From assembly GCA_002699085.1 (NCBI GenBank), contig PAAR01000009.1:133725-197724 (forward strand): a DNA stretch of 64,000 nt, read 5' to 3'. The notes below the pieces were generated by a model. The model did no database searches. It saw only the letters and a program-made list of their open reading frames with translations, and was not told where the DNA came from. The translations under genes and the position numbers were made by a program. Origin of the DNA: Micavibrio sp. GTDB lineage: Bacteria; Pseudomonadota; Alphaproteobacteria; Micavibrionales; UBA9664. Below, piece after piece: positions 19,158 to 41,551 of the stretch (its first letter is position 1; every line of letters begins with the position of its first letter).

Positions 19158-20285
<1,128 letters not shown>

Positions 20286-20303
20286 TTATTTCCTCAGACA
20301 CGA

Positions 20304-20332
20304 ATCATGAATCATTTGAGAGTCTGGGTCAA
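20304..20332 (-). promoter_or_regulatory. Predicted ccrM promoter containing GANTC
   Basis: On the minus strand TTGACC (20327-20332) is followed by 17 bases and CATGAT (20304-20309). One GANTC lies in the spacer (20320-20324) and two overlap the -10 element. This resembles GcrA/CcrM-controlled promoters of Caulobacter. A start near 20297 leaves a 24-base leader. Confidence 0.55.
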
Positions 20333-20421
20333 GGAATTAATTCATTTTAAAGTTAAAAAGAGTCATAAGAGTCAATATCTTATCATAATATCTTCATAAG
20401 TGACTCAAATGCTTATAGTTT

Positions 20422-20450
20422 TTGATTTTACTTAACTTATCGGGTATGAT
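20422..20450 (+). promoter_or_regulatory. Predicted promoter of the solute-binding protein gene
   Basis: TTGATT (20422-20427), a 17-base spacer and TATGAT (20445-20450) precede the ATG at 20480. GGAG at 20467-20470 is the ribosome binding site. Confidence 0.6.
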
Positions 20451-20479
20451 TTCGCTTAAATAAATTGGAGAGAGTCTTT

Positions 20480-21298
20480 ATGAGAGCATTTTTTATCGCA
20501 GTATTTCTGTTGTCATTCTTGAGTTTGCCTGTATGGGCCGCCGACAATGAGCACAGAGCTTATGACCGCATCATGCAAAGCAATGAAATTAAATGCGGCT
20601 ATGCTGTCTGGCCTCCCTTTGTTGAAAAAGATCCGAATACGGGTGAGATGTCAGGTATCCTCGTTGATATCGTTGGTGAAATTGGTAAAAGCTTAGATTT
20701 AAAGATTAACTGGGCTTATGAGACTGGCTATGGCACATATACTGAAGACCTGAATACAAACCGCATGGATGTTATGTGTGCGACATTATGGGCTGATGCA
20801 GGCCGCATTCGTAATTCACTCTTAATTGATCCTTTCCTTTATTCTGGTGTTTACCTGGTCGTAAAAGATGGGGACGACCGCTTTAACGATGATTTTTCAA
20901 AGCTTAACAGTGAAGAATATACGATAGCGGGCATTGAGGGTGATATCACACAAACTTTGGCAAATCGTCTCTTTCCGAAAGCGAAGAAGATTACGCTGAC
21001 CAATATTTCACAAGCTTCTGAATTGGCCGAAAATGTTAAAACTGGCAAAGCAGATGCTACTTTTTCTGATCTAGGTTTCTTCAATGACTATAATCTCAAG
21101 AACCCGAATACAGTGAAAGTGCTTACGAATAATCCAGCATGGATATTCGGGGAACGTATGGCTGTGAAAAATGGCGAGACAAAGCTTAAATATCTTCTCG
21201 ACACAGCAATTAGCGAATTGGTGAATAGCGGTAAAATTGATGAAATCATCAAAAAATACCCAGATACCAGCACTATGCCACCTAAAAAATCCTATTAA
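20480..21298 (+). CDS. Periplasmic solute-binding protein (family 3-like)
   Basis: This 272-residue exported protein has a signal peptide ending VWA (about residues 1-20) and a single bilobed type-II binding domain. Visible pieces are KCGYAVWPPFVEKD and SGILVDIVGEIGKSL in the first half and IAGIEGDITQTLANRLFP in the second, as in amino-acid/polar solute binding proteins. No permease or ATPase gene is nearby, so the transporter is elsewhere or the protein is an orphan sensor. I chose ATG 20480 over an upstream TTG because GGAG lies 9 bases before it. Its stop overlaps the convergent rnhB stop. Confidence 0.87.
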   Translation: MRAFFIAVFLLSFLSLPVWAADNEHRAYDRIMQSNEIKCGYAVWPPFVEKDPNTGEMSGILVDIVGEIGKSLDLKINWAYETGYGTYTEDLNTNRMDVMCATLWADAGRIRNSLLIDPFLYSGVYLVVKDGDDRFNDDFSKLNSEEYTIAGIEGDITQTLANRLFPKAKKITLTNISQASELAENVKTGKADATFSDLGFFNDYNLKNPNTVKVLTNNPAWIFGERMAVKNGETKLKYLLDTAISELVNSGKIDEIIKKYPDTSTMPPKKSY

Positions 21299-21924
21299 GC
21301 ATGTTGTTTTAATAGCAAAGATTTAACTGGCTCGAAGCTGCGGCGGTGATGCGGTGTGATGCCATGCTCATGGATGGCCTCTATATGTGTTTTTGCGCCA
21401 TAACCTACATTGCTATGCCAGCCATATTGCGGATAATCCTTGGCCAATTCAGCCATGAGAGTGTCTCGCGTTACTTTAGCGACGATTGATGCTGCGGCAA
21501 TTGATACGCTTTTGCTGTCACCCTTAATAACAGTTGCAACAGAGCAGGGCAATTTGGGCGCTTTATTACCATCCACAAGCGCATGCGCTATTGACTCAGG
21601 GCATTTTGCTTGAAAGGTATTAAATGCATTACTCATAGAGCGTAAGGTGGCCTGTAAAATATTTATTTGGTCGATGACTTCAATATCAAGGATATCAATA
21701 CCGCATATACAATTTTCCTGAATTAAAGTATTAAGAACCTCACGTTTTTTTGCAGAAAGCTTTTTGCTATCGTTCAATTCTTTGACCCATGCCGTCTCGC
21801 GTATCATTTCAGGAATATAAACACAAGCGGCAACAACAGGGCCAGCCAGAGGGCCTCGGCCAACCTCATCTATGCCGCAGACAATGCCGTTTATATTGTC
21901 TTCTAGGCTAAAATCAGGCCGCAT
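21295..21924 (-). CDS. rnhB: Ribonuclease HII
   Basis: This 209-residue enzyme cuts RNA in RNA-DNA hybrids and single ribonucleotides in DNA. The DEG-type motif is at Asp19-Glu20 in GIDEVGRGPLAGPVV, with later acidic residues in HALVDGNK and AKVTRD. A longer frame starts at 21993 but runs 80 bases into the upstream gene. The ATG at 21924 gives normal RNase HII length and an 11-base overlap (ATGCGGCCTGA) with the oxygenase stop, which suggests translational coupling. Confidence 0.94.
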   Translation of the reverse strand: MRPDFSLEDNINGIVCGIDEVGRGPLAGPVVAACVYIPEMIRETAWVKELNDSKKLSAKKREVLNTLIQENCICGIDILDIEVIDQINILQATLRSMSNAFNTFQAKCPESIAHALVDGNKAPKLPCSVATVIKGDSKSVSIAAASIVAKVTRDTLMAELAKDYPQYGWHSNVGYGAKTHIEAIHEHGITPHHRRSFEPVKSLLLKQHA

Positions 21925-22855
21925 CTTTGGCTGATTTGTAACTTTCTGTTTTTGTCGAATAAGGGTCATTAAAGGTTTTACGGTAGATTGCATATTCAGT
22001 GACTGTCATTGGCTTATCTGGATAGCCTTCAACAGGCGTTCTGTCCGCAAATTTTGATTGTGGCTGTAGCATAAAATCTGCGTTCATATGTCCAAAGTAA
22101 ACAATACTCATACGCCCATCATTTTTCGCTTCTGCCCAATGATTACAGGGCAATACAGCATCATTGGTGAGCCAACCGAGCTGGTAACCATTATTTTTTA
22201 ACCCCATGCCTTCTTCAGCAATCACAGAAACCTGCTCACCTTTACGACTTTCAATCGTTAATCCAGGCTGCCTTGGGAATAGAATAGTCTGGCGAGAGCG
22301 GTCACGATGCGGTGCAATCGAATTACCTTTTTGCGCGCCAAAGGTCACCCGCAATTTATGGTTGCCGTGAACAGAGCCATCCCAGATTGTTTTTTCGTCA
22401 CCAAAAATATATAGCGATAAGGGCACTGACAGGCGGTAATCCAACTGTTGGAAGGCTTCGTACATATTGGATAATGTTTTATCAAAGACAGTTTCAACTT
22501 GAGGGCGAGGACAGAAAACTTCTTTCAACGCCTCACTTGTTGCCTCTTTAGGGCCAATCATAAAATATTCTAGCGTATCAGCTTGTGTGCCATGCGCTGA
22601 TTTCTCGCCCCCCTTAGGGAAGTAACCACCATCATGGTCATATTGCGCATAATCAAAGCGCATTTTGTCTTCCAGAGGACGCTCAAAGAAAGCACGGGCA
22701 ACTTTTTGTGTTTCAAGCAAACAGGTTTCAATTTTTGGATCATAGCCTGTAAACAGATAGGCGCCATATTCTTCTTCGGCGGCAATAATGTCGCTTTGAA
22801 GAGCTTTGTCTGTTTCTATATTGGCGATGTCAAAGACAGGCAGATCGTGTTTCAT
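21914..22855 (-). CDS. Fe(II)/2-oxoglutarate-dependent dioxygenase (isopenicillin N synthase-like)
   Basis: This 313-residue non-haem iron enzyme has the double-stranded beta-helix. Its ligands are His183-x-Asp185 in APHRDRS, His239 in CNHWAEA, and Arg248-x-Ser for the co-substrate. The N-terminal FDIANIETD and the mid-region FFERPLEDK are typical of the isopenicillin N synthase superfamily. The substrate is unknown; plant-like hormone or antibiotic roles should not be assumed. I chose the ATG at 22855 because GGAGG lies 7 bases before it; a longer frame from 22903 lacks this. It is coupled to rnhB. Confidence 0.85.
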   Translation of the reverse strand: MKHDLPVFDIANIETDKALQSDIIAAEEEYGAYLFTGYDPKIETCLLETQKVARAFFERPLEDKMRFDYAQYDHDGGYFPKGGEKSAHGTQADTLEYFMIGPKEATSEALKEVFCPRPQVETVFDKTLSNMYEAFQQLDYRLSVPLSLYIFGDEKTIWDGSVHGNHKLRVTFGAQKGNSIAPHRDRSRQTILFPRQPGLTIESRKGEQVSVIAEEGMGLKNNGYQLGWLTNDAVLPCNHWAEAKNDGRMSIVYFGHMNADFMLQPQSKFADRTPVEGYPDKPMTVTEYAIYRKTFNDPYSTKTESYKSAKDAA

Positions 22856-40876: not shown

Positions 40877-40955
40877 ATCACCTGAGTCAAACCAGTCTGT
40901 CTATACTGTTCATTTTGAAAGTGCAATAGCGAATCGAGAAAGTTTTTTTATTACC

Positions 40956-40964
40956 TGTGGATAA
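40956..40964 (-). promoter_or_regulatory. Perfect DnaA box
   Basis: The plus strand reads TGTGGATAA, i.e. TTATCCACA on the minus strand, the consensus high-affinity DnaA box. GANTC sites flank it at 40884, 40931 and 40999. A weak TTTAAA-N17-TATACA promoter (40966-40994) starts two bases downstream, so DnaA could regulate it. Confidence 0.6.
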
Positions 40965-41035
40965 CTTTAAAAAGTTTTTTATAGGGGGTATACAAAACGA
41001 ATCACTTGCCCTAGATTAAAATTATATTCTTTGTA

Positions 41036-41475
41036 GAGAGTTACAAAAAGATAGAAAGCCTTAAAACTTCACTAATTTATGTAACTTTAGTTCATACAGA
41101 GTTTCGGCTTTGTGTCGTCAAACAAAGAATATAGAAACCTAAGCCTAGAGCTTAAAACGATATTTTACCAAGAATTTTATATCTTCGGATATATAAGAGG
41201 AGGTTAAAAAGAAAGCTCACTGAACTTCGGTTCTCTCTTTGCCCTTAGAAGCAAAGTAGTGTGAAAGGATTATAGAGACGACGCTGATTGCCATTCTTGG
41301 ATGGCACCTTGAGCAAGCCTCTTATAAATAGGATAGATGAATCGCTTCACGGCCTTTAAATCGCCTTTTATAAGAAAGATGTAAAAAGTTTATCAGCCTA
41401 TGACGCTATAATATGTTGGTTTTGATTTGGAAAAGCACTTTTCGTTCACTCGGAAAGTGCTTTTCTGCTTTTTGA
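41036..41475 (+). ncRNA. Unidentified highly structured RNA candidate
   Basis: The 675 bases between rnj and the next gene (40877-41551) hold no convincing protein gene but many stems. These include AGTTACA/TGTAACT (41039-41086), a hairpin at 41094-41115, TAAGC/GCTTA (41140-41154) and two cUUCGg tetraloop hairpins (41178-41193 and 41222-41233). CTTTGC/GCAAAG (41237-41256), TGCCAT/ATGGCA (41289-41306) and an 11-12 pair stem at 41321-41374 follow, with a strong terminator last. CTTTGT at 41108 can pair either upstream or perfectly with ACAAAG at 41122, so alternative folds are possible. I found no conserved RNase P, tmRNA or SRP RNA signature. It could be a long ncRNA or a leader with attenuator. 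Confidence 0.5.
41430..41473 (+). terminator. Strong intrinsic terminator of the RNA candidate
   Basis: A perfect 12-base-pair stem (GAAAAGCACTTT / AAAGTGCTTTTC) that can extend to 15 pairs, with a 6-base loop, is followed by TGCTTTTT. It lies 79 bases before the next ATG, so upstream transcription should end here unless antiterminated. Confidence 0.85.
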
Positions 41476-41551
41476 AGTATTTTCCTTGTGTTTTAGCGGA
41501 ACTTTAATTACATAAAGAGTGTTGATACAGTGAAACAAGAGGAGTAATAAA

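Follow-up and report, generated by a model that had tools for sequence, protein, structure and literature searches.

In Caulobacter crescentus the gene of the cell cycle methyltransferase CcrM carries GANTC sites in its transcribed leader. It is known to be activated by CtrA, and methylation of the GANTC in its own control region probably affects the gene, as far as the accessible parts of the literature go. A second group of related systems are sigma70 promoters governed by GcrA and CcrM, such as Caulobacter ctrA P1, podJ, and mipZ, where GANTC is found near or between the -35 and -10 elements. At such promoters GcrA is described, in the accessible text, as a sigma70 cofactor which activates them when they are methylated. 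The third system is the gcrA promoter of Agrobacterium tumefaciens, which drives a cell cycle regulator and has six GANTC in 250 bp; according to the accessible part of PMC11514494 methylation lowers its activity, and does so also in E. coli, where alphaproteobacterial factors are absent.

The locus described here, the upstream region of ccrM in a Micavibrio sp., resembles Caulobacter ccrM in having GANTC in the control region of the gene itself, but whereas Caulobacter has leader sites and CtrA as activator, here the sites of a predicted sigma70 promoter lie in the spacer and on the two boxes flanking it, and a conserved CtrA box is absent. With ctrA P1, podJ, and mipZ it has in common the position of GANTC and a genome encoding both CcrM and GcrA; in contrast to these promoters it has two to three sites at fixed spacing, it belongs to ccrM, and its layout also occurs in families lacking a detectable GcrA. 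The likeness to the Agrobacterium gcrA promoter, which serves a different gene, lies in the dense array of GANTC. That ccrM probably senses its own methylation, that promoters can be sensitive to methylation, and GcrA itself are known elements. The literature covered, which included the accessible parts of PMC7987155, PMC3667746, PMC3973325, PMC8116508, and PMC7403470 and left most subscription papers outside, yielded no recognisable description of GANTC sites arranged in a conserved way at ccrM; within this coverage neither a base-pair-fixed layout shared by many families nor its occurrence in the absence of GcrA was found. One study from 2010 had counted GANTC upstream of cell cycle genes, its accessible text drawing no conclusion from the counts (PMC2877005).

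The ccrM locus and its GANTC array

The window, i.e., the whole 64-kb stretch of DNA analysed, contains ccrM on the minus strand from position 19158 to 20273. The gene encodes an orphan GANTC adenine methyltransferase of 371 amino acids with a C-terminal RAMA domain (Pfam N6_N4_Mtase 1e-71, RAMA 1e-17). Its identification as CcrM is based on a strong match over its length to CcrMI in the protein data bank (6pbd_A, phmmer 8.6e-152), the score of 607 bits with the NCBIfam CcrM model being below the curated cut-off of 830.

All seven GANTC sites reported upstream of the gene by an earlier, sequence-only reading were verified in the sequence. Counted from the promoter outwards these are site 3 (20302–20306), site 2 (20309–20313), site 1 (20320–20324), site 4 (20360–20364), site 5 (20369–20373), site 6 (20402–20406), and site 7 (20472–20476). 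An eighth GANTC, which had been overlooked, occupies 20264–20268 in codons 2 to 4 of ccrM and occurs at the same place in several relatives of the same order. In an alignment with the congener locus L003 five of the seven sites match, namely sites 1 to 5, including the upstream pair GACTC-N4-GACTC formed by sites 4 and 5. Site 6 reads AAGTC in the congener, and site 7, located in the leader of the neighbouring divergent gene, has no counterpart there.

This neighbour, a plus strand gene for a family 3 solute-binding protein (20480–21298, Pfam SBP_bac_3 1e-18), is followed on the minus strand by rnhB, encoding RNase HII (21295–21993, Pfam RNase_HII 6e-42). It is rnhB which is the ancestral upstream neighbour of ccrM, being found there in the same direction in 25 of 30 same-order loci and in 71 of 86 loci from the class. 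The solute-binding protein gene was absent from this place in the other 29 same-order loci as well as in all 86 class loci sampled. It is thus a late private insertion, and the conserved unit is the spacer between rnhB and ccrM. That the array also times the divergent gene, as had been suggested, is therefore unlikely, all the more as site 7, the one nearest to this gene, is not shared with the congener. As the sequence-only reading had proposed, the array is that of ccrM and is located in the core promoter of this gene.

GANTC is scarce in the window, which has 99 sites, whereas 100 dinucleotide shuffles gave 188 on average. The enrichment of the array is consequently stronger than the roughly tenfold density estimated before, seven sites in 175 bp being about 26-fold the local density and about 14-fold that of the shuffles. 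A sample of the genome was then used, consisting of 40 stretches plus the window, which together cover 829,596 of 1,886,490 bases (44%) and contain 1207 sites. The ccrM array was the densest 175-bp stretch in this sample, the runner-up having four sites, at three places, and uniform placement of the 1207 sites yielded seven per 175 bp in one of 300 runs. Many equally dense intergenic regions, which had been named as evidence that would speak against a special role of the array, were not found in this 44% of the genome. Clusters of three GANTC with gaps of at most 30 were not generally enriched either (16 places versus 29 in the reversed control), two of the 16 being the ccrM array itself. As a separate observation, a crude mask of open reading frames left a noncoding gap of 675 bp at 40877–41551 of the window which holds four GANTC.

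Layout of the core promoter and its conservation

The predicted ccrM promoter on the minus strand, TTGACC-N17-CATGAT, lies where it had been placed, with the -35 element at 20327–20332 and the -10 element at 20304–20309. In the numbering used here position +1 is 20297, a predicted start deduced from the spacing. Three of the GANTC sites are indeed contained in the core promoter: site 1 from -27 to -23, within the spacer and at a distance of 8 nt counted from the first base of TTGAC, site 2 from -16 to -12, at a distance of 19 nt counted likewise and with its C as the first base of the -10 box, and site 3 from -9 to -5, overlapping the -10 box. Target sites of CcrM hence overlap the core promoter elements of its own gene, which is one feature of an autogenously methylation-regulated promoter, and GANTC is present in the sigma70 promoter from -35 to -10, which is one feature of the GcrA/CcrM type. 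Between the predicted start and the ATG of ccrM the window sequence contains no GANTC.

We consider it improbable that this is a CtrA-controlled promoter of the Caulobacter type in which GANTC would merely provide fine-tuning. Besides the role of CtrA in Caulobacter, a TTAA-N6-TTAA at 20337–20350, just upstream of the -35 box, could be taken to point in this direction, but a CtrA box of the form TTAA-N7-TTAA is missing from 20201–20560, the stretch with the N6 variant is partly absent from the congener, so that the element is not conserved, and TTGACC already provides the promoter with a good -35 box.

Relatives which had been found by similarity of the CcrM protein alone repeat the layout TTGAC-NNN-GANTC-N6-GANTC-AT. 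The common arrangement consists of TTGAC as -35 element, a 17-bp spacer, CATNNT as -10 element, one GANTC from -16 to -12 touching the -10 element, and usually a second one around -27 to -23, which is one helical turn upstream of the former. Distances from TTGAC to GANTC accordingly peak at 8 (103 counts versus 1 in a background of 2.17 million strand-bases, i.e., 2.17 Mb) and at 19 (111 versus 6, the highest peak). A third peak at 26 (28 counts) corresponds to the third site of the triad, and the 58 counts at distance 2 are overlaps of the type TTGACTC, which are found likewise in the background (12). When families were chosen only by TTGAC-N14-GANTC, position -11 was A and position -7 was T in 20 of 20, although these bases had not been selected for. 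As they are positions 2 and 6 of the -10 box, this indicates a real sigma70-type promoter. The triad GANTC-N6-GANTC-N2-GANTC is frequent in the order to which the organism belongs and is present in family f112 as well; its strict three-site form occurs once in the organism's own genome and not at all in the control.

These fixed distances bear on a further explanation, that the sites are kept for some other reason, be it a replication-linked methylation clock, sequestration of the locus by hemimethylation, or compositional bias. The number of GANTC upstream of ccrM varies widely among the loci, and sites beyond the core promoter have no fixed position, as such an explanation would lead one to expect, but the core sites are locked to the -35 and -10 boxes, and the otherwise GANTC-poor genome has no general intergenic excess of the motif (1.78 versus 1.42 per kb with a crude mask of open reading frames). 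We therefore give it little credence.

At least three GANTC in 250 nt upstream of ccrM were found in 47 of 70 alphaproteobacterial families, as compared to 19 of 3341 background windows. Array size was rejected as a remarkable feature, since at least three per 250 nt is the rule in front of this gene; the array is not unusually large, as had been claimed, at least seven in 250 nt being present in six of the 70 families and in five of the 30 same-order loci, this one included. For the arrangement TTGAC-N13..15-GANTC about 0.001 occurrences per 250 nt are expected by chance. In the 250 nt preceding ccrM it was found in 24 of the 70 families, each represented by a single genome and several of these genomes being incomplete, in 35 of the 86 genomes from the class, in 22 of 30 same-order loci, and in 69 of 80 named loci. 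Rhodobacterales make up most of the named loci, which should not be counted as 80 independent cases; the remainder includes two Micavibrio, a Kiloniella, and a Marinicaulis. The 86 class loci come from 281 genomes with ccrM and comprise 26 loci plus 60 stretches, the latter selected mainly as one per family from the better-scoring matches, so that weak CcrM homologues are under-represented; the ccrM starts were set by homology, and the 250 nt were counted from the matched region. In 46 of the 70 families this form is missing, some having other spacings and some no GANTC at all. A blind search of 385 class genomes for the strict pattern yielded 59 matches in 58 genomes, compared to three in the reversed control, and 47 of the 59 lay directly upstream of ccrM, with variable letters in the spacer. 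The layout of the ccrM promoter is conserved across many alphaproteobacterial families far beyond chance.

Two observations were made beside these counts. In many families a recurrent taacNNattGANTC element is found a short distance upstream of the ccrM -35 box, and a similar cccattGAATC precedes the organism's own divIC promoter. In a genome of family f121 without GcrA, tandem 15-bp units each containing GATTC stand before the region homologous to CcrM (L270:483–578); they may be coding.

Twelve strict matches in the class are located away from ccrM, and four of these precede genes: two ftsK genes of family f19 (L179:1501–1563, where an open frame also crosses the site, and L181:1501–1551), the gene of a ribonucleotide reductase large subunit (L180:1239–1524, with the chosen start codon 286 nt away), and an M23 peptidase gene (L177:1413–1524). 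The other eight have no convincing gene start, seven of them being situated in open frames of at least 375 nt. The organism's own genome contains TTGAC-N14-GANTC six times, one of them at ccrM. A wider set of promoters in this genome was tried as a candidate and rejected, as four of the other five matches lie in open frames of at least 666 nt and the fifth (L277) in one of 360 nt. The next-densest class of GANTC cluster in this genome includes one at C8 near 212131 (L309:14407–14548), which consists of TTGAC-N5-GAATC-N6-GATTC and an upstream GAATC; it precedes a septum gene of the DivIC/FtsB type (PF04977, 4e-17), which has enolase as its divergent neighbour.

Genomes with and without GcrA

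One candidate for reading the sites is GcrA. The methylated GANTC in the spacer would recruit GcrA, which would bind to domain 2 of the sigma factor and aid opening of the promoter, and CcrM would then activate its own gene by positive feedback. The genome encodes a GcrA of 151 amino acids with both domains (3e-30 to 7ye1_G), site positions near -24 to -29 are also those of Caulobacter ctrA P1 and podJ P2 according to the accessible part of PMC4287350, and the pattern is shared, strictly, by the above ftsK, ribonucleotide reductase, and peptidase genes and, more loosely, by the organism's own divIC/ftsB. Apart from this, a second GcrA-like open reading frame of 218 amino acids was noticed at C31 of the genome (L190:722–1378, PF07750 4e-9); it covers profile positions 66–146 only, including the C-terminal sigma-interacting part.

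Among the 385 class genomes GcrA (PF07750) was detected in 245 and ccrM in 281. No PF07750 match was found in 64 of the 281 genomes with ccrM, and 28 genomes had GcrA but no ccrM match at an E value of 1e-40. The strict promoter was present in 13 of the 64 genomes without GcrA and in 34 of the 217 with GcrA (Fisher p 0.45, to be taken as a guide only, as related genomes are not independent). An association of the promoter with GcrA was accordingly rejected, 13 of the 47 genomes that carry the strict promoter having no PF07750 match. A profile built from 16 GcrA sequences was run on these 13 genomes, three relatives, and four positive controls. It found all four controls with E values of at most 5.3e-22 and nothing convincing in the 16 test genomes: 13 gave nothing at E values up to 1, and three had hits at 0.006, 0.03, and 0.3, of which two are in frames with stops. 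No GcrA was found in the four sampled genomes of family f120 (three genera) and the three of family f142 (one genus), all seven of which have the promoter, or in the four sampled genomes of family f121, two of which have it. Assembly gaps explain some of the ccrM genomes without GcrA but not whole families; a gap is possible for G124, G246, and G377, whose family relatives do have GcrA.

As some families have the promoter but no detectable GcrA, and as it is equally common in genomes with and without GcrA, GcrA cannot be the only reader, nor can it be what keeps these GANTC sites in all lineages. Of the proposal that GcrA reads the ccrM sites, its presence in the genome thus stands, but its standing as the obvious reader is not supported; in the families concerned GcrA may have been missed, or another reader may take its place. 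Taken together, we regard a ccrM promoter depending on GcrA as rather unlikely.

Proposed methylation sensing by the ccrM promoter

The reading we favour, to which we would give an even chance, is that the array represents an autogenous methylation-sensing core promoter of ccrM at which methylation acts directly on sigma70-RNA polymerase. The class-wide conserved spacing provides strong indirect evidence for methylation-based self-control, so that the earlier proposal of ccrM being controlled by its own product is retained without its unusually large array. The simplest reader common to all would be sigma70-RNA polymerase itself. The adenines of the GANTC sites would be methylated by CcrM, which would place N6-methyladenine at -15/-13 and near -26/-24. 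Binding of the polymerase or opening of the promoter would change with the methylation state of the two strands. After replication the promoter would be hemimethylated and active, and newly made CcrM would then methylate it again and probably turn it down, yielding a self-limited pulse after passage of the fork. Where present, as in this genome, GcrA may additionally read the same marks. The sites farther upstream (-63 to -76 and beyond) are probably accessory, and sites 6 and 7 may be without importance.

By analogy, shut-off by methylation is more likely than activation. The Agrobacterium gcrA promoter favours this sign as an earlier case in which GANTC methylation represses directly and independently of GcrA, and Caulobacter ccrM is described in the accessible part of PMC2217572 as active only from the hemimethylated chromosome, which also counts for repression. 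For activation count those Caulobacter promoters which have GANTC between -35 and -10 and which, according to the accessible part of PMC4287350, are associated with activation at 40–60 min. Positive control would fit the Caulobacter timing and the activation of methylated sigma70 promoters by GcrA just as well.

A more general proposal is put forward tentatively, with less than even confidence: the alphaproteobacterial ccrM promoter might be a self-contained methylation sensor read directly by sigma70-RNA polymerase, its feedback loop working without GcrA, and GcrA might be a later or optional reader which took over a design already present in front of ccrM and of a few genes for division and replication. 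The self-limited pulse of CcrM has been worked out mainly in Caulobacter, where CtrA and GcrA dominate. With a layout fixed to the base pair and kept without GcrA, the core of this loop may be the promoter DNA itself. For mutagenesis in easily grown Rhodobacterales the layout defines two exact target sites, an in vitro test would be simple, and the layout can serve as a sequence signature in the search for further genes controlled in this way.
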